NCBI GenBank assembly: GCA_020630575.1
Contig: JAHDBD010000020.1
Location: 1-64,000 of the forward strand
Reading direction: 5' to 3'
DNA from: Bernardetia sp.
GTDB taxonomy: Bacteria > Bacteroidota > Bacteroidia > Cytophagales > Bernardetiaceae
DNA length: 64,000 nucleotides
A program made the position numbers and the translations under genes. The notes beneath the pieces are model-generated. The model saw only the letters and a program-made list of their open reading frames with translations. It did no database searches and was not told where the DNA came from. Positions 14,501 through 21,012 of the stretch are shown piece after piece (position 1 is the first letter of the stretch; each line of letters begins with the position of its first letter).

Positions 14501-15440
14501 AGATGTGGCAACCATTATGATTACGATGCTTAGAAAAATTGGTATAGAATCATATTATGTTTTGGTAAAAGTAAACGAAAATACACAGCCGTTTATGCCA
14601 TTAGAAATGGAGTTTAATCATGCTATCGTAGCTTATTATTTAGATGGTAAAATAAATTATTCTGACCCAACAACTGATTTTTATCCATATTATTCACTCA
14701 ATGAAGGTGATACAGAAGCGTGGGCATTGCTTATAAAAGATGGCGAAAACAAAGCCTTCCGTTTGCCTCCTAATCATACCGATTCTACCAAAACATTTAC
14801 GCAGTATGATGTAACAGCAGTTTTAGATGAATTCAATACGCTTGATTTGGAAGTAAAAACCACTTATACAGGTCTTGTAGCTGGAAGATGGCGTTCAACA
14901 ATGGAATTAGAGTCAAAGGATAATTTACCAAATCATATCATCTCTAGTTTGGGAAGTAGCGCATTTAGAAATCTTGAATTAGATGAATATGATTTTGATA
15001 AAGTAGAGAATATTTCTGTTCCTTTAGAAGCAAATTATCAGTTTCATGCTAGAGAATTTACAGACGATGTAACAGGAATTTATTTTATGCGTTTGCCTTT
15101 TGTAAAAACGGTTGAAGCTGATGTTGCCATTTATGGAAGTGAGCGAACCAATGCAATGGATATAAAAACTTTTACATTTGCACAACCTCATATTCAGCGT
15201 ATTACTGTAAAAATGAACAAAAATTTTGCTGTCAAAAAGTTACCTCAAAATGTAAATTATGACACAAAATTTGGAACTTACACACTCAAATTAAAGCAAA
15301 CAGCAGAAGGATTGTACATTGAGCGTTTTGTTCACTTCAAACAAACTCGTATTGAACCATCTGAATTTAAAGCCTTCAAAGAATTTTATTTGCAACTTTT
15401 GAAATACGATAATTTGAAAGTTCTCTTACAGCAAAAATAA
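11520..15440 (+). CDS. Secreted TPR / DUF3857 / transglutaminase-like protein
   Basis: A large exported protein of about 1306 residues. The ATG at 11520 gives a clean signal peptide (MKKIIFLLL.. to about 22); an ATG five codons upstream is possible. TPR-like repeats occur near residues 20-70 and 620-700 (LLYQKANYLYSKERYEEAM). A DUF3857-type beta domain (about 720-930) is followed by a transglutaminase-like core. Its catalytic triad is visible: Cys in GDCKDV (about 993), His in FNHAIV (about 1034) and Asp in YSDPT (about 1049). DUF3857 and transglutaminase-like domains occur together in Bacteroidota surface proteins; peptidase or crosslinking activity is untested. A charged linker (EEEDDKKKK) lies near residue 315. 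A terminator follows at 15510. Confidence 0.85.
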   Translation: MKKIIFLLLTVSFILPTYSQAQNKTGWEFIQQNDHQKARQAFQQTLEKDSTDAEANKGMIFLSEVEGDTQGYYLHLNRLMRHHWDENYYDVFKRQISISYSDLKEKMYDKNGNQKMSSRFYVSPSLFEAYKEFTRREFEKSKASFAKIHNRLYWATINGFPNINGYGYTVEYPVEKEAFNPKGSYKIITDEKLSWEILPYFQYDGDIYLDQTEGVHYANTFFSVDKEQEIDFRITRSYPIKIWLDGKEIFASPKTISAHYDAERISMKLPAGNHRILIKYAVARYFKGGSGSSELDFDGMKSIDYNYEAEEEDDKKKKSTIERLEEEEDNYYPYYQRNLFIRLTDKNGIAIPLQAYKDPVTYSVATNFENSKTTSLETLEYFKNLVTKNDSENINSFFDYYMLIQSHLYYSRGEELEEFFAKKVEQNPNSVYFKYLAAKVYNENNKTEKSFDLMGTFDQQKTPIFTLLYKDLKEIDAENQSEEYEEKLDQLDQISRSNFDVIQRKLRFYDQKGRKDERIAYAKKMVKEYPLYSQSLQRYIDDKDNRPEDYYQNQQKDKKDDDKAKEKDYKKALKKYFDVGTYKKLIALYKKDKEVEKVLELYDEMIVVKPNESWLLYQKANYLYSKERYEEAMTTIKQAIPIDPNSSGIYEMIGDIHSDKGDKQTALTYYKKAQQLSTSQNSYELDNKIEKIEGEKQYKNKFETPSFDEYKANYEKLSKTEAFKKEYKDAESIILGYNRDVIWNDTARATYFYSNIMIKILTESGAKLWTQSNFDLLGRVTSAKVIRENGTETRPDVQGSFIIFKNLKVGDIIQVEGMASWSTVSELGNNLGISSYIPFPAPILSAKLEFLIPQNRNLFYESHKLDGKLKVSNREDGLASYRWDYENIPIPIAENAMVDDLEYYPVLRVSTTEDWGIIVDWYKAKTYQKLESNYIIDDILKNIIKDGMTEKQKIETIFNYISQNINYSSTSLLQSGYIPKDSDLTCSSKIGDCKDVATIMITMLRKIGIESYYVLVKVNENTQPFMPLEMEFNHAIVAYYLDGKINYSDPTTDFYPYYSLNEGDTEAWALLIKDGENKAFRLPPNHTDSTKTFTQYDVTAVLDEFNTLDLEVKTTYTGLVAGRWRSTMELESKDNLPNHIISSLGSSAFRNLELDEYDFDKVENISVPLEANYQFHAREFTDDVTGIYFMRLPFVKTVEADVAIYGSERTNAMDIKTFTFAQPHIQRITVKMNKNFAVKKLPQNVNYDTKFGTYTLKLKQTAEGLYIERFVHFKQTRIEPSEFKAFKEFYLQLLKYDNLKVLLQQK

Positions 15441-15452
15441 AAAATGTTTTTA

Positions 15453-15480
15453 TCGTTGGTGGAAACGCCAAAAATGGCAA
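15453..15480 (+). repeat. Dispersed hairpin element, copy A
   Basis: TTGGTGGAAACGCCAA forms a hairpin and is followed by AAATGGCAA. It is one of seven intergenic copies of an element whose fullest core is ACACCAACAACGGCAA. It lies 12 bp past the DUF3857 gene stop. Confidence 0.6.
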
Positions 15481-15509
15481 TTTTACCTTTAAAATTTTAA
15501 ATAAATAGC

Positions 15510-15549
15510 AAAAAAAGTCTTAATTCTGAAAAGAGTTAGGGCTTTTTTT
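15510..15549 (+). terminator. Terminator after DUF3857 gene
   Basis: Stem AGTCTTAATTCT (15516-15527) pairs with AGAGTTAGGGCT (15532-15543) through G-U wobbles around a GAAA loop, followed by seven T's. It resembles an intrinsic terminator. Confidence 0.8.
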
Positions 15550-15679
15550 GTGTATCATAAATTTGAATATCACTCTTTTGTTGAAACCATAATGCAAAAC
15601 TTCAATCCAAAAGCTCATTATTAGATAAGTTACTTATACAAACTATATTATTTTAAGAAAATAAATTGTACTTTTGAAA

Positions 15680-18379
15680 ATGCAAAAAAACATTTCTTCT
15701 ACTTATTCTTCAAAAATTATAGAATCTATTATTTCTTCATTTTCGCCTTATCAAAAACGTTTTTTTCAAGATATTCTAACACTTCATTACGGACAAAATG
15801 AAACTCAAAACCGTATTACCAGCAATCTTCTGATCGAATACAAAAACAAAAAAACTAATTTTGGTAGAGAAAAATGGGTTTATTTTTCTTCTTATATTTC
15901 GTCTTATTCTATGCGAGATGTTTTGTTGTATGCAAAACTGAATGGTTTTGATGAAGTAGTCTTAAGAATAATGGCAATGATAGCTTATTTTCAGAAAAAT
16001 GAGGAAGGACAAAAAGATTTTTTTATAGAAGTTTTACAGACACTTCAAGATGCAACTTTTTTCTTTGAATTTTATACAGCATCTTTTGAAAAACCATTTC
16101 CAAACTCTCTCAAAAAATCAATTCGATTTTGTCTAGAAAATAAAACAAAAGAAGACTTTACTATTTTTTTTAAAGACTTTCCACATAAGAAAATGCTTTT
16201 GGCTGACTGTTTGAATATCTGTCGCCCAAGATTAAATAATGAAGTAGATACTACTTTTTTAAAAGAAAATTTTAAATCAAAAATACCTGTAAAGAAATGG
16301 AAACAAGAACTTACAGAAGCACATTTAGAAAAAGGCTCATATCAAGAAAAACGAAATAAACAAAGTCAGCTTTGGAAAGATTTTGTTGTGAATGATAGGC
16401 TTTCTAGCCAAGAAATTTTAGAAGAATTGCCTTTGATTTTCAAAAATTCGCCTAAAACCGTAAAATTAGCTTTAGAAAAATTACAAAATAAATTAAACCA
16501 AACTACACCAGACGAAAGTGAAAATATAGAATTAGCTAACAAACTTTCGCCATTTCAGATTCTTGAAAGCTATAATCAAATTCATAAAGCGTATGTAAAA
16601 CGAGTACACAGAATTTTGCATACCCAAGAATTTGTAGAAAGTATTGTTGCCGAACAAGAAGAAGAACTTCATCGTTTGCAAGTAGCTTCAAAACGTATTT
16701 TCAAAAAGTGGGAAGGTGAGCTTTTTTTTGGTGGCTATCATCGTCTGATGCTTATTTTTCACGAATTAGACGAACAACAACGCCTATTTTTTACTCAAAT
16801 CAATAAACCTAATTTGCAACAAGCACCTAAGCAGATGGCGCAAATTATGCAAAGAAGTGTACAGATTGATAATTTACTTTCCACTTTTGAAGAAAATTAT
16901 TTGAGTGAGCTTCCTCCCTCTTTGGTTCAGCAAGAAGGATGGAGAAAAATAGAACGACAAGCACTCAAAAATTTACGTCGTAAAGTAGGCTTTTTTGGAG
17001 AACTAGCAGACGTTTTTTATTCTGAAAAGATAGAACAAATCAAACGCCTTTATTTTTATTCGCCAGAAGAAATACAAGATGTTTTGAAAGAAATTGCTAT
17101 TCACTTAGAAGAATTAGAAGATACAATTTTGCACAGAATTCGTGGCAGAATTGCAGCCTTTAAAGATATTCAAGAGCTTTATTTGGAACAAGCACGCCCA
17201 CCTATGCAGGCAGCTTTACAGGAAATGTTTGAAGTAGCTAAAGGAGTAAGCGAGCATTTGACAAAACAACTAAATCAGGCTCAAAAGCAACAAAAAGAAC
17301 ATTTAGAAAATAATTCAGATTCAGACAGTGATAATTCATCTAATTTATTAGGGGAAGTAATTGAAAAGAATTTGAGTAAAAAACAGAAGCAAAAAGTAAA
17401 AAAAGGAGTTAGTTTAGAGGACTTTCAATCAATTTATGAGAACAAAGTACGTCAAACCTATTGGGATAAAACAAAAGAAAACCAAAAGGAAGAATTATCT
17501 GCGTTAAGAAATGAATTGAGAAATCAGTTAGAAGATGCACGAAAAACTATTCAAAATATCATTCAGGTAACAAAAGAAGATATAGAAAATACACTTTCAA
17601 AGGCACGAAAACAACTTGCTTCTATTTACCAACAAACAGCACAAGAAGAACGAGAAATGATTCCTTTTTTTAAAGAAATTAGAGGAAAAGTAGAACGTAT
17701 TTTCGAACGCAAACCTTTTGAAGAGGATTTCTTAACGCTTTATCCAGACCTTACAAAAGCAAATGATATTCAGAAAGGATTATTAAAAGAAATTTTGCCT
17801 CATACTATTCAAAATATTTCAAGGCTCAATAATAAAAAGGATAATAAAAGGTTTTCAAAGACACTGATAATTTTGGACGAAGCTCTGACAACAGAAGCCC
17901 AATCATTAGAAAAAGCAAGTTGGCTGAGTGCTTTTATTTTTCAAAATTCTAGTAGAAATTCGGTTAGCTCACATAATTTGATTCATTTAAAAATATTGAG
18001 TGAAGATGCTTTAAACACCTATTATACTCAAAATCAGAAAGATACAGCAGCATTTCAACACCGTTTGCAAGATGCTATGATGAATTACGCTACTTCTGAA
18101 AAAGGAAACCTATCGGTAGCTCTTCGTCGACTTATTCAAGATAAAGAAGCCTATTCAAGAATTATTCTTTTGAGTAAATGGACAGAGAAACAACCTCCTT
18201 TTCCTTTCAAATTACTAAAAGAATATCGACAAAAGCATCGTATTTCGCCTTGTGTTTTTCTAGTAAACCTTCAACCTAACCTCTCGCCACAGCTTCGCCT
18301 ACGTAGAAATGGTGTTTTTGCAGTACAAGGAATTTATGAAAACTTAGTAGACTGGGTTTTAGAAATGGAATGTTTGTAA
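15680..18379 (+). CDS. Ro60-like TROVE protein with long coiled-coil insertion and degenerate vWA
   Basis: An 899-residue protein whose ends match the two halves of Ro60/Rsr RNA-binding proteins. The N-terminal alpha-solenoid (about 20-315) carries TROVE-like segments: MRDVLLYAKLNG, FFFEFYTASF..NSLKKSIRFCLEN, MLLADCLNICRPR, LWKDFVVNDRLS and LSPFQILESYNQIHKAY. Residues of about 320-720 are charged helical/coiled-coil sequence (LEEQ/KEELSALRNELRNQLEDARK type). The C-terminal end (about 728-899) follows the Ro60 vWA order: TLIILDEALT, GNLSVALRRLI, LLKEYRQKHRI, VQGIYENLVDWVLE. The DxSxS metal motif is reduced to DEALT. Typical Ro60 homologues are about 530 residues. The ATG at 15680 lies three bases after TACTTTTG. 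I infer a ring-shaped RNA-binding protein; no Y RNA was recognised nearby. Confidence 0.6.
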   Translation: MQKNISSTYSSKIIESIISSFSPYQKRFFQDILTLHYGQNETQNRITSNLLIEYKNKKTNFGREKWVYFSSYISSYSMRDVLLYAKLNGFDEVVLRIMAMIAYFQKNEEGQKDFFIEVLQTLQDATFFFEFYTASFEKPFPNSLKKSIRFCLENKTKEDFTIFFKDFPHKKMLLADCLNICRPRLNNEVDTTFLKENFKSKIPVKKWKQELTEAHLEKGSYQEKRNKQSQLWKDFVVNDRLSSQEILEELPLIFKNSPKTVKLALEKLQNKLNQTTPDESENIELANKLSPFQILESYNQIHKAYVKRVHRILHTQEFVESIVAEQEEELHRLQVASKRIFKKWEGELFFGGYHRLMLIFHELDEQQRLFFTQINKPNLQQAPKQMAQIMQRSVQIDNLLSTFEENYLSELPPSLVQQEGWRKIERQALKNLRRKVGFFGELADVFYSEKIEQIKRLYFYSPEEIQDVLKEIAIHLEELEDTILHRIRGRIAAFKDIQELYLEQARPPMQAALQEMFEVAKGVSEHLTKQLNQAQKQQKEHLENNSDSDSDNSSNLLGEVIEKNLSKKQKQKVKKGVSLEDFQSIYENKVRQTYWDKTKENQKEELSALRNELRNQLEDARKTIQNIIQVTKEDIENTLSKARKQLASIYQQTAQEEREMIPFFKEIRGKVERIFERKPFEEDFLTLYPDLTKANDIQKGLLKEILPHTIQNISRLNNKKDNKRFSKTLIILDEALTTEAQSLEKASWLSAFIFQNSSRNSVSSHNLIHLKILSEDALNTYYTQNQKDTAAFQHRLQDAMMNYATSEKGNLSVALRRLIQDKEAYSRIILLSKWTEKQPPFPFKLLKEYRQKHRISPCVFLVNLQPNLSPQLRLRRNGVFAVQGIYENLVDWVLEMECL

Positions 18380-18407
18380 TGAATTGCATTATTTTCTCTA
18401 AACATAA

Positions 18408-18427
18408 ACATGGTTTTAACCCTGTTT
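18408..18427. repeat. TTTTAACCCTGTTT repeat, degenerate copy
   Basis: The sequence CATGGTTTTAACCCTGTTT matches the right half of a perfect hairpin at 36652-36671. The left arm is decayed (ACATGG instead of ACAGGG). Confidence 0.4.
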
Positions 18428-18535
18428 TTATTTTTGTAGTACCCCAAAGGAGCAGCGTTGCCAATTTTTATGCACCAAAAAATGTCTATTAGTATGGTCT
18501 TAAAGATAGTTAAAATATAAAAAAGCAAATAGAAA

Positions 18536-18592
18536 CACAAAAAAAAGACTTGCAAATAAGATAAATTATAAATTTATAGTATTAACAAGTCC
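18536..18592 (-). terminator. Terminator of rpmH
   Basis: On the minus strand, GGACTTG pairs with CAAGTC across a loop that itself contains ATAAATTTATAAT-type pairing, and eight T's follow. It lies about 75 bp past the rpmH stop. The long loop lowers certainty slightly. Confidence 0.6.
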
Positions 18593-18664
18593 TAATTTAT
18601 CTTCACTTTGGTTTAACTTTAGTTTATCAAAGTAGTAGAAACACTAGAGTAGTTAGAGTAATTC

Positions 18665-18820
18665 TTATTTGTGTGTACGCTCGTCAGAAACAGTAAGTTT
18701 ATGACGTCCTTTTGCACGTCTAGCACGAATTACATTACGTCCTCCTGGAGTTTCTGTACGTGAACGAAAACCATGTTTGTTTTTACGCTTACGTTGCGAA
18801 GGTTGAAAAGTACGTTTCAT
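18665..18820 (-). CDS. rpmH: 50S ribosomal protein L34
   Basis: A 51-residue, highly basic protein of the large ribosomal subunit. The translated sequence opens [20 protein letters not shown], followed by [19 protein letters not shown] and ends in a short SDERTHK tail. This is an unmistakable L34 of normal length. A strong promoter is predicted at 18981-19011, giving a leader of about 155 nt. The RNase P protein gene rnpA, which usually follows rpmH, is absent; the downstream region holds only a terminator and repeats before the convergent TROVE gene. Confidence 0.97.
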
Positions 18821-18980
18821 AATGGTATAGATTTAAATAATTTAAGAATATTAGAAATTAGAATCAGAATTTAAAATCAGTAGAGCTAATTATAAATTTT
18901 GACAAATCTCAAAAATTATATTTTTATGCTATAAGCATTATTCCTAAATCGCTTTACAAATATTTTAAAATAATGAAGGG

Positions 18981-19011
18981 CAAAAGTACAAAAAGACTAG
19001 CGTATCTACAA
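18981..19011 (-). promoter_or_regulatory. Strong promoter for rpmH
   Basis: On the minus strand, TTG (19009-19011), a 20-bp spacer and TACTTTTG (18981-18988) match the Bacteroidota consensus. The inferred start near 18974 gives an AT-rich leader of about 155 nt before rpmH, long enough for ribosomal autoregulation, although no specific structure was recognised. Confidence 0.65.
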
Positions 19012-19034
19012 GAATTATTTAAAATTATTTAGTT

Positions 19035-19673
19035 TTATCTTTCTACAAGCATTTTATTAACTTCTGTACGTTGTGCTGAACGAAAATGAACAAAATATTC
19101 TCCATTCTGCCAACCATTAATATCAATAATCAGAGGTGATTTATCAGCTTCTACCGAAAAATATAAAACTCCATCAGCATCATAAATCTGAACTGTTGCA
19201 TGCAAATCTGTACTTGGCAAATGAATCTTGATATATGAAGTTTCTACTGTAGAAGGCACAAATTGATTAGAAGCCAGTGTAAGAATTACATCAACAGGCA
19301 TAATATCAGAATAAGTAGTTTTGCCAGCCGTATTAAGAATTTTTAAGCGATAATGCAGACGAGAAGCAAATGCTTTTTTATCTACAAAAGAATAATATTC
19401 TATATCGTTGCTCTGAATAGTTTCGATAGTTGTAAAATTACGTCCATCAATACTTCTTTCTACTTCAAAATAAGAAACAGGAACTGTTTCAGCAGCCGAT
19501 TTTAATTGCCATCGCAAAATAACTGTCTGTGGAGAAGTGGCTTGTGCCTGAATACTCACTTCTTGTGCATAACTATCAGCGTGTGTATGGAAAGCACAAA
19601 ATAGCAAAATCAGAAAACAGCCTATACTATGTACAAGAGGATTAAAAGAAGAATATATATATTTTTTTCGCAT
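19035..19673 (-). CDS. Exported protein with T9SS-type C-terminal domain
   Basis: About 212 residues from the ATG at 19673 (MRKKYIYSS); a TTG 15 codons upstream is less likely. A signal peptide lies at about 12-36. The middle (about 40-125) reads like the fibronectin-like domain common before T9SS sorting signals: VILRWQLKSAAE, YFEVERSIDGRNFT, HYRLKILNTAGKTTYSDI. The C-terminal 80 residues (IYDADGVLYFSV, GWQNGEYFVHF, VNKMLVER) match the type A sorting domain pattern, ending KMLVER. It therefore looks like little more than a secretion and anchoring module lacking a catalytic domain. It is either a small surface protein or the remnant of a larger one. Confidence 0.65.
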   Translation of the reverse strand: MRKKYIYSSFNPLVHSIGCFLILLFCAFHTHADSYAQEVSIQAQATSPQTVILRWQLKSAAETVPVSYFEVERSIDGRNFTTIETIQSNDIEYYSFVDKKAFASRLHYRLKILNTAGKTTYSDIMPVDVILTLASNQFVPSTVETSYIKIHLPSTDLHATVQIYDADGVLYFSVEADKSPLIIDINGWQNGEYFVHFRSAQRTEVNKMLVER

Positions 19674-19890
19674 AGCCGTTTGGTAGAATTGAGAAACTAA
19701 TTGATTTATTAAATTCAAGATAGTTTCAAATAAATAGTATTGAATAAGATAGCATTTTTTGAAGAATAAGTATTCTTACTCTAAACTAAAATAGTCAGAA
19801 TTTATACCAATAACCCTATAAATCGGATTATAGTATAGTAAAAAACATATTTTTCGATAAAGCCATCTTACTCAGCTACAAAATAATCGT

Positions 19891-21012
19891 TTACTTCTGT
19901 AAAAAAGGAAACTTTTTTACCTCAGCTTTCATTCTTTTTCCTTCTCTTACTTCTACAAAAATTTCACTTCCTGCTTTTGTAAAGTCTTTTTGGAGATATG
20001 CCATTCCGATAGACTTACCCAGTGAAGGTGATTTTGTTCCAGAAGTAACTTCTCCAATCTGATTTCCTTCTTCTTCTGTATCAAAAATTTTATGATGTTG
20101 TCTTGCAATTCCTTTATCCAAAACTTCAAAACCTACCAGTTTTTTAGTAACTCCTTCTTTCTTTTGAAGCTCTAAGGCTTCACTGTTGATAAACTTTTTA
20201 TTGAATTTGGTTATCCAGCCAAGTCCAGCTTCTAAAGGTGAAGTAGTGTCGTTTATGTCATTTCCATACAAACAAAAACCCATTTCCAAACGGAGTGTAT
20301 CTCTTGCTGCCAATCCAACAGGAATAATTCCGTGTGCTGCTCCACTTTCCAAAATAGCATTCCAAACAGCAACAGCATTTTCATTGCTTACATAAATTTC
20401 GAAACCTCCTGCACCTGTATAACCTGTATTTGAAATAATTACATTTGGCACACCTGCAAAAGTATCTTTCACAAAATGATAATATGGAATTTCTTTTAAG
20501 TTGGCTTTTGTAAGAGGTTGAAGCGCATCAATAGCCACTGCACCCTGAACAGCAAAAAGACTAATGTTATCTGAAATATTTGTCATTTCTACACTTTCAG
20601 GCTTATATTTCATAAGCCAGTTCCAATCTTTTTCGATATTAGACGCATTGACAACCAAAAAATAATCATTTTCTGCCATTTTATAAACTAACAAATCATC
20701 TACAATTCCACCTTTATCATTTGGAAAACAAGAATACTGAACTCTTCCATCATAAAGTGTAGCCACATCATTTGAAGTTACATATTGTAAAAAAGCCTCA
20801 GCTTCTTCACCTTTTACAGAAAACTCGCCCATATGTGAAACATCAAACATACCTACTTTTTCACGAACAGCATGGTGTTCAGTAGTTTGAGAAGCATACC
20901 AAACAGGCATTTCATAACCAGCAAAAGGAATCAGTTTTGCACCTAAAGCTGTATGCACATCGTGCAAAGCAACACGTTTTAAATCTGTTGAAATAGAAGA
21001 ATCTTGAGCCAT
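19891..21012 (-). CDS. gcvT: Aminomethyltransferase (glycine cleavage T protein)
   Basis: GcvT transfers the methylene group from aminomethylated H protein to tetrahydrofolate and releases ammonia, in the cytoplasmic glycine cleavage system. The 373 residues are full length and carry the folate-binding GCV_T domain: LHDVHTALGAKLIPFAGYEM, VREKVGMFDVSHMGE, NTGYTGAGGFEIYV, PVGLAARDTLRLEMGFCLYG. The C-terminal barrel domain has GEVTSGTKSPSLGKSIGMAY. The gene stands alone; gcvH and gcvP are not nearby, as is common in Bacteroidota. No glycine riboswitch was recognised upstream. Confidence 0.96.
   Translation of the reverse strand: MAQDSSISTDLKRVALHDVHTALGAKLIPFAGYEMPVWYASQTTEHHAVREKVGMFDVSHMGEFSVKGEEAEAFLQYVTSNDVATLYDGRVQYSCFPNDKGGIVDDLLVYKMAENDYFLVVNASNIEKDWNWLMKYKPESVEMTNISDNISLFAVQGAVAIDALQPLTKANLKEIPYYHFVKDTFAGVPNVIISNTGYTGAGGFEIYVSNENAVAVWNAILESGAAHGIIPVGLAARDTLRLEMGFCLYGNDINDTTSPLEAGLGWITKFNKKFINSEALELQKKEGVTKKLVGFEVLDKGIARQHHKIFDTEEEGNQIGEVTSGTKSPSLGKSIGMAYLQKDFTKAGSEIFVEVREGKRMKAEVKKFPFLQK

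Follow-up and report, generated by a model that had tools for sequence, protein, structure and literature searches.

Introduction

Ro60 is an old and widespread ring of RNA quality control, on which a Y RNA acts both as tether and as gate, as it does in D. radiodurans. Ro60/Rsr proteins form closed rings with RNA ends bound in the central hole, are about 500-540 amino acids long and carry no large insert in front of their vWA domain. In D. radiodurans, a Y RNA tethers Rsr to PNPase (PMC4726728). Here we analyzed the first 64,000 nucleotides of a Bernardetia sp. contig (JAHDBD010000020.1; this whole stretch is called the window), which encode an 899-residue TROVE-like protein in an open reading frame (ORF) at 15680-18379, with an ATG at 15680 and a stop codon ending at 18379. 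As judged from sequence comparison, this long protein is a divergent member of the TROVE superfamily and no Ro60 orthologue; we do not file it as Ro60 because its metal-site motif, its length and its RNA neighbourhood were each tested and depart from those of Ro60. The reading that we favour, with a probability of roughly 60%, is that the Ro60 scaffold persists without its metal site and without a number of hallmark polar residues, and that a helical docking arm of ~390 residues has been gained before the vWA domain.

Results

A TROVE scaffold interrupted before its vWA domain

The helical repeats (residues ~81-314) and the vWA domain (residues ~712-899) match TROVE/Ro60 proteins collinearly, and the first ~80 residues have no TROVE match. 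A profile built from 31 Bacteroidota Ro60/TROVE proteins, the divergent L081-L086 among them, scored the eight rows of the family alignment (seven from the same genus and one, G007, from another) at 24-56 bits in hmmsearch (window copy 48.0), with separate N- and C-terminal stretches in each of the seven same-genus rows. In hhalign, residues 1-320 reached a probability of 97.0 (P 1e-10; residues 82-311 against TROVE 70-301) and residues 690-899 a probability of 93.1 (P 3e-7), while the middle (residues 290-700) reached 0.3 and the whole chain in global mode 98.3. Reversed family alignments gave 0.1-0.3 %, and the best of 100 seven-column block shuffles scored 37.5 versus 83.0 for the real N part, 24.9 versus 55.7 for the C part, and 24.4 versus 18.1 for the middle. 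The original prediction had proposed segments in TROVE order within a Ro60-like protein enlarged by an insert that parts the TROVE region from the vWA domain; the collinear matches of the two ends, aligned separately (TROVE for 1-320, vWA for 690-899), the low controls and the unmatched middle bear this out.

Ranked by the same profile, 242 distinct ORFs comprised 38 below E 1e-99, followed by the seven same-genus copies at 42.7-56.2 bits and then by vWA-bearing ORFs at no more than 15.6 bits; the copy of G007, when trimmed to begin at its first Met, scored -1.0. A profile built from 76 phage-type TROVEs gave the window copy 50.3 bits and vWA-bearing ORFs up to 27.6, the same as the cut G007 copy. 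In the reverse direction, the family profile found 128 of 153 phage-type TROVE ORFs (duplicates included) at E<=1e-3, with a best E of 4.4e-27, and a single ordinary TROVE (L081) used as query hit one place in the window's genome, the long gene (E 1.3e-4, 22 % identity). Against 17 canonical Ro60s alone, hhalign gave weak matches (P 0.02 and 0.0011). An AlphaFold2 model made with phage TROVE rows was confident in the repeats and the vWA domain, and its ten best PDB rows were all Ro60/TROVE structures; this fold-match list, filled by TROVE and vWA, is uninformative on the insert, for which we claim no new fold.

Pfam TROVE (PF05731; gathering score 23 bits, unreached) did not list the long protein at E<=10 and, at E<=1, matched nothing in the genome of the window, and searches of the protein or family in Pfam, NCBIfam, PADLOC and PDB sequences returned nothing near cut-off. 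In a FastTree tree of 172 N-terminal columns, 2.7-3.3 substitutions per site separate the family, whose placement is unsettled, from its closest TROVE row. The silence of the Pfam TROVE and vWA models and of the PDB sequence search might speak for an unrelated helical protein that merely resembles TROVE; the profile, reciprocal and single-sequence searches with their controls rule this out, and we give it next to no chance.

Size and structure of the inserted segment

In 164 distinct TROVE proteins, drawn from 228 loci, 40-83 residues (median 49) separate the Pro of the PFR motif from the first Asp of the metal-ion-dependent adhesion site (MIDAS). The spacing in the long protein is 442, and the net insertion is therefore ~390 residues. 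Compared with the three best short TROVEs (L136, L147, L140), N-terminal homology ends at residue 309-314 of the window's protein; C-terminal homology resumes at 712-715 versus L140 and L147, and hhalign places the C-terminal start at 696. The junction before the vWA domain tolerates insertions, since a canonical-type Ro60 (L080:919-2508) has about 20 extra residues there.

The model places two long helices in the insert, 462-544 and 579-676, which with 83 and 98 residues make up about 180 of its ~390-400 residues and are modelled at low confidence. Both have a hydrophobic period of 3.65 (P 0.000 and 0.001 from 2000 shuffles), and four shorter helices have periods of 3.50-3.60 that are not or barely significant, as measured by a crude Fourier test rather than a coiled-coil predictor. 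A heptad coiled coil over 400 residues was rejected, the period being 3.65 instead of 3.5 and the segment consisting of two long helices and shorter ones. Of the predicted "roughly 400-residue coiled coil", the length thus stands and the coiled coil is an overstatement. The projecting arm proposed with it stands as to place, the insert lying where the 164 short TROVEs have 40-83 residues; as to shape, the two long helices appear just in the low-confidence model.

An hhalign comparison between the insert halves found no duplication. Searched alone against 296 genomes of the phylum, the insert recovered the window's gene and nine weak matches in other long ORFs (about 15-17 bits, E 0.002-0.01), which we take as helix look-alikes. 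No paper describing such a TROVE insertion was listed in the open-access library searched.

The period of 3.65 in both long helices, with its shuffle P values, could also be that of lipid- or surface-binding amphipathic helices with an apolipoprotein-like 11-residue periodicity, which would make the protein a membrane-surface scaffold, and weak matches to Pfam Apolipoprotein (E 0.007) and to apolipoprotein E (E 7.7) point the same way. However, both matches lie far below cut-off and are typical of long helices, and a period of about 3.6 is expected of any amphipathic helix in a bundle; we consider a membrane role quite improbable.

Loss of metal-site and hallmark TROVE residues

At the DxSxS position, seven of the eight family rows read D-E-A-L-T and one reads D-G-V-L-A, which puts Ala (7/8) or Val (1/8) at the Ser735 position and Thr (7/8) or Ala (1/8) at position 737. 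The distal MIDAS Asp is replaced by Lys in six rows and by Thr and Leu in one each, and Asp733 and Thr805 are kept in all eight; for G007 these residues are read from the family alignment alone. On sequence grounds the MIDAS motif (DxSxS...T...D) is thus broken in the long family, the first Ser and the distal Asp being replaced in 8/8 rows and the D and T retained. The C-terminal motifs and the DEALT quoted in the original prediction are located where it had placed them, and the loss of the usual metal-site residues that it proposed is seen across the eight aligned rows.

Residues of the TROVE part have changed as well. Lys170 and Arg174 presumably contribute to Y RNA binding in Ro60. In none of the eight rows (one has a gap) does a Lys align with the K of the aKY motif, in a region of uncertain alignment where Lys165 lies three residues on. 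The motif RNLRN, 92-100 % conserved per column in 107 TROVEs, reads E-(E/Y)-L-P-L in seven family rows and falls in gaps in the eighth. The HP motif, at the place of His187 of Ro60, is RP in six rows and HP in two; an H187S mutant of Ro60 is described as lacking Y RNA binding (PMC11277228). Among the conserved TROVE positions that could be aligned, 2 of 17 polar ones and 6 of 18 nonpolar ones are retained in at least six of eight family rows, in a part-by-part alignment in which the DxSxS and distal-Asp columns and the conserved columns before 144 are unscored.

The insert is the most constrained segment

Nonsynonymous (dN) and synonymous (dS) substitutions per site were estimated by the Nei-Gojobori method for residues 1-300, 301-545, 557-690 and 691-899. 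In this order, dN was 0.105, 0.017, 0.012 and 0.048 between the window and G003 (dS 0.60-0.99), 0.129, 0.035, 0.066 and 0.118 between the window and G001, 0.229, 0.060, 0.080 and 0.120 between the window and G002, and 0.192, 0.076, 0.068 and 0.132 between G001 and G002; several dS values exceed 1 or are undefined, most of all with G007, to which the segments are 25, 40, 42 and 27 % identical. Within the genus, dN in the insert is 2-9-fold below that of the N part, so that the strongest constraint falls on the insert and not on the TROVE part. The motifs IRGRI (487-491) and IRGKV (667-671) are kept in all rows. An exception within the insert is linker 546-556, whose 11 residues vary freely (27-91 % identical across the genus pairs measured).

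These rates also bear on whether the gene is a decaying, functionless Ro60 paralogue, as its lost hallmark motifs and its distance of 2.7-3.3 substitutions per site to the closest TROVE row could suggest. Within the genus, however, dN is well below dS in all four long segments, linker 546-556 excepted, the gene is present in 6/6 same-genus genomes searched, and the frame is intact in every same-genus copy except one with a stop near its end. Purifying selection speaks strongly against a pseudogene, which we rejected; decay is very improbable indeed.

Y RNA matches near long and short TROVE genes

No YrlA or tRNA match was found around the long gene (window positions 15000-19900, E<=5; seven weak matches to other families), nor at five other long-gene loci at E<=0.5 (0/6 in total), in two of which the contig ends close to the gene (at about 320 bases in L117 and about 190 in L005); this negative covers Rfam-type RNAs beside the gene, and a non-Rfam RNA or one elsewhere in the genome would escape it. 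In G005 the long gene is flanked by gaps of about 80 and 60 bases, into which the YrlA model with its 114 positions would not fit. Within the same family, canonical Ro60 genes had YrlA or tRNA-like matches nearby at 4/4 loci (L009, L013, L014, L023) at E<=0.5, YrlA itself just at L014 and L023 (31-43 bits, below the 69-bit gathering score), and a whole-genome scan found YrlA-like matches of 34-44 bits adjoining Ro60 in G002 too. Ten Ro60/TROVE loci scanned at a strict threshold yielded no YrlA match, and four of them had tRNA matches. YrlA matches occurred at 16 of 26 phage-type short TROVE loci (4/6, and 12/20 with one of the latter lying over a tRNA match); the locus of the best relative, L140, lacks YrlA and has four tRNA matches. 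Where a genome had no Ro60 hit, YrlA scored at best 24.8 (G000, 84.5 % complete), 28.3 (G003) and 28.0 (G005), which we take as background because control genomes match at E<=1 in 13/14 cases, though 28 bits does not settle it.

The Y-like RNA that the original prediction suggested looking for had no match beside the gene, and the idea, also from that prediction, that the protein tethers RNA is so far unsupported. RNA binding should not be assumed, because hallmark residues are replaced and no Y-RNA match lies beside the gene. The protein may still be an RNA-quality-control Ro60, with a ring that binds misfolded or single-stranded RNA and an arm that brings a PNPase, helicase or RNA ligase. 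The kept TROVE scaffold, the basic N and C parts (net +6 and +9) and the His at the His187 place in two of eight rows would agree with this, and the Y RNA tether of Rsr to PNPase (PMC4726728) is a precedent in logic. On the other hand, RNLRN is replaced, as are the His187 residue in 6/8 rows and, as far as the uncertain alignment shows, the K of aKY; evolution is fastest in the N part; and no Y RNA match adjoins the gene and no RNA-repair gene is among the six neighbours searched in Pfam, a point tempered by a SpoU-type RNA methylase about 2.8 kb downstream; such a role is possible, if rather doubtful. By analogy with the Y RNA, a built-in protein arm might instead have replaced it as tether or gate, the neighbouring Y-RNA gene and the Y-RNA-reading residues having gone. 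Such a replacement would fit the residue changes and the lack of a Y RNA match beside the gene, and we hold it to be unlikely.

Further observations concern Y RNAs and TROVE genes elsewhere. At two loci (L133:5888-10444 and L134:3527-8142) a same-genus canonical Ro60 lies about 2 kb from a 345-residue ORF that by eye resembles an Rnl2-type RNA ligase, with YrlA-like matches between the two. Clusters of YrlA-like matches (25-36 bits, all below cut-off) at G002:C19:36027-37130 (L131) and G007:C13:8656-9090 (L132), with no Ro60 gene in the 12-13 kb covered, are possible free-standing Y RNA arrays. TROVE is common in viral contigs (L136-L295), where one scan confirmed 311 stretches and a second 277, the best 80 of each being kept, and many of the 26 viral TROVE loci scanned have adjoining YrlA-like RNA or tRNA genes.

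Occurrence, gene neighbourhood and feature coordinates

Long orthologues were present in 7 of 59 genomes searched, namely all six of the same genus (the window's included), whose copies of the protein have the start MQKN in common, and one of another genus in the same family (G007, 35 % identity). An order-wide search of 390 genomes found the long gene in eight, from 2 of 129 genera, and a scan of viral contigs for the long form yielded 126 pattern matches and no relatives; the long form is so far known from two genera of one bacterial family. Canonical Ro60 copies (~506 residues in the same genus) occur alongside it in G001, G002, G004 and G007. A detached copy of its last 33-34 residues near the end of a short contig (G005:C82:4863-4964, L008) is perhaps an assembly artefact.

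The six neighbours searched in Pfam comprise an ABC-2 transporter-like gene, a TPR and a TPR/transglutaminase gene, GcvT, the SpoU methylase and a gene with a below-cut-off Por secretion tail. Gene order is common to the window and G003 on both sides and to G084 downstream; no neighbour is common to all loci compared, and no partner is visible in the gene neighbourhood. Separately, a vWA protein of ~550 residues with a weak CoxE-like vWA match (L037-L043) occurs in 7 of 9 genomes of the family; the Bacteroidota TROVE profile gives it 12-16 bits and the phage-type profile 23-28.

Table 1. Positions in the window of the long TROVE-like gene and its features
Feature	Position	Strand	Basis
Coding sequence, 899-residue long TROVE-like protein, stop included	15680..18379	+	ORF list, orthologues, shared start
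TROVE-type helical repeat region, residues ~81-314	15920..16621	+	hhalign P 1e-10; family profile versus phage TROVEs up to 73 bits; predicted local distance difference test (pLDDT) 65-96 per 10-residue block over 81-310
Arg182-Pro183, place of TROVE HP motif (Ro60 His187)	16223..16228	+	family alignment
EELPL (248-252) replacing TROVE motif RNLRN	16421..16435	+	alignments
Insert (residues ~315-711), with roughly 10-20 residues of uncertainty at either end	16622..17812	+	homology ends, spacing, no TROVE match
Insert part 1, residues 315-461, several shorter helices	16622..17062	+	low-confidence secondary structure from the model
Insert part 2, long helix 462-544, IRGRI at 487-491	17063..17311	+	model pLDDT about 50-67; IRGRI in 8/8 rows
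Residues 545-578, variable Ser/Asp-rich linker (546-556) and short helices	17312..17413	+	alignment, model
Insert part 3, long helix 579-676, IRGKV at 667-671	17414..17707	+	model; IRGKV in 8/8 rows
Ro60-type vWA domain, residues ~712-899	17813..18376	+	hhalign P 3e-7; strand/helix order; pLDDT 75-95 per block; Ro60 and vWA structures
DEALT (733-737) replacing MIDAS DxSxS	17876..17890	+	alignments
Thr805, aligned with MIDAS Thr, kept in 8/8 rows	18092..18094	+	family alignment
Lys833 replacing distal MIDAS Asp	18176..18178	+	alignments

Discussion

We propose that the long protein is a retooled Ro60 scaffold carrying a docking arm. A hairpin or bundle is the simplest picture of this arm because both ends of the insert meet at one scaffold junction; with its ends close together, the segment would leave the ring beside the vWA domain and project from it. 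The arm would be the working surface and would dock a partner, most likely a protein or ribonucleoprotein, since the insert is the most constrained segment and the repeats change faster. The ring and vWA domain would form the base of the arm, the vWA domain holding the ring through a metal-independent contact, with a possible pairing of Lys833 and Asp733 at what would be the metal position.

Several points weigh against this proposal. The confident AlphaFold2 model used 55 TROVE rows, so that its Ro60 fold is partly there by construction, and a model made without TROVE rows, from three close rows, had a pLDDT of 39. The root-mean-square deviation to Ro60 structures is 9-11 Å, and Foldseek template-modelling scores are low (0.17-0.18 by query, 0.27-0.30 by target). 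In the insert the pLDDT is about 40-70, and the projection of the arm thus depends on a low-confidence model. The G007 row is matched by the TROVE profile in its N stretch only (24.2 bits), its vWA part going unrecognised by that profile alone. As for the lost residues, His persists at the His187 place in two of eight rows, and with Asp733 and Thr805 still present and Thr737 a potential ligand, weak metal binding is possible. Conservation of the insert could reflect helix packing instead of docking, and the docking function is inferred from sequence.

In the long homologue, nature provides a test of what in the Ro60 machine is scaffold and what can be exchanged; it also shows that a large module can be carried at the junction in front of the vWA domain. 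The likeness to RYPER (Rsr-Y RNA-PNPase) lies in the idea of a tether from a Ro60 ring to a partner machine and is an analogy only: the tether of RYPER is an RNA, whereas that of the long form would be a protein arm. Canonical bacterial Ro60/Rsr proteins (PF05731; D. radiodurans Rsr, 2nvo, and the ~506-residue same-genus copies) have no large insert, unlike the long form, and the canonical copies have adjoining Y-RNA- or tRNA-like matches, whereas the long form has none nearby. The Ro60 of Thermus phage phiLo (9l5y) and the TROVE protein 9kop likewise differ from it, with ~500 residues, a DVSGS metal motif and no large insert. Phage-type short TROVE/Ro60 proteins (L140, L147 and L136 from IMG/VR; L081-L083 from Bacteroidota) keep the MIDAS SGS and RNLRN, both absent from the long form, and have a YrlA-like RNA close by in 16 of 26 loci versus none in six long-gene loci (L081-L083, scanned at the strict threshold alone, had none). 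L140, L147 and L136 are 470-490 residues long and without insert, in contrast to the 899 residues of the long form with one. These phage-type proteins are nevertheless the best sequence matches of the long family (up to 87.7 bits; 44-50 bits for L081-L083), and they share with it the collinear arrangement of repeats and vWA domain.
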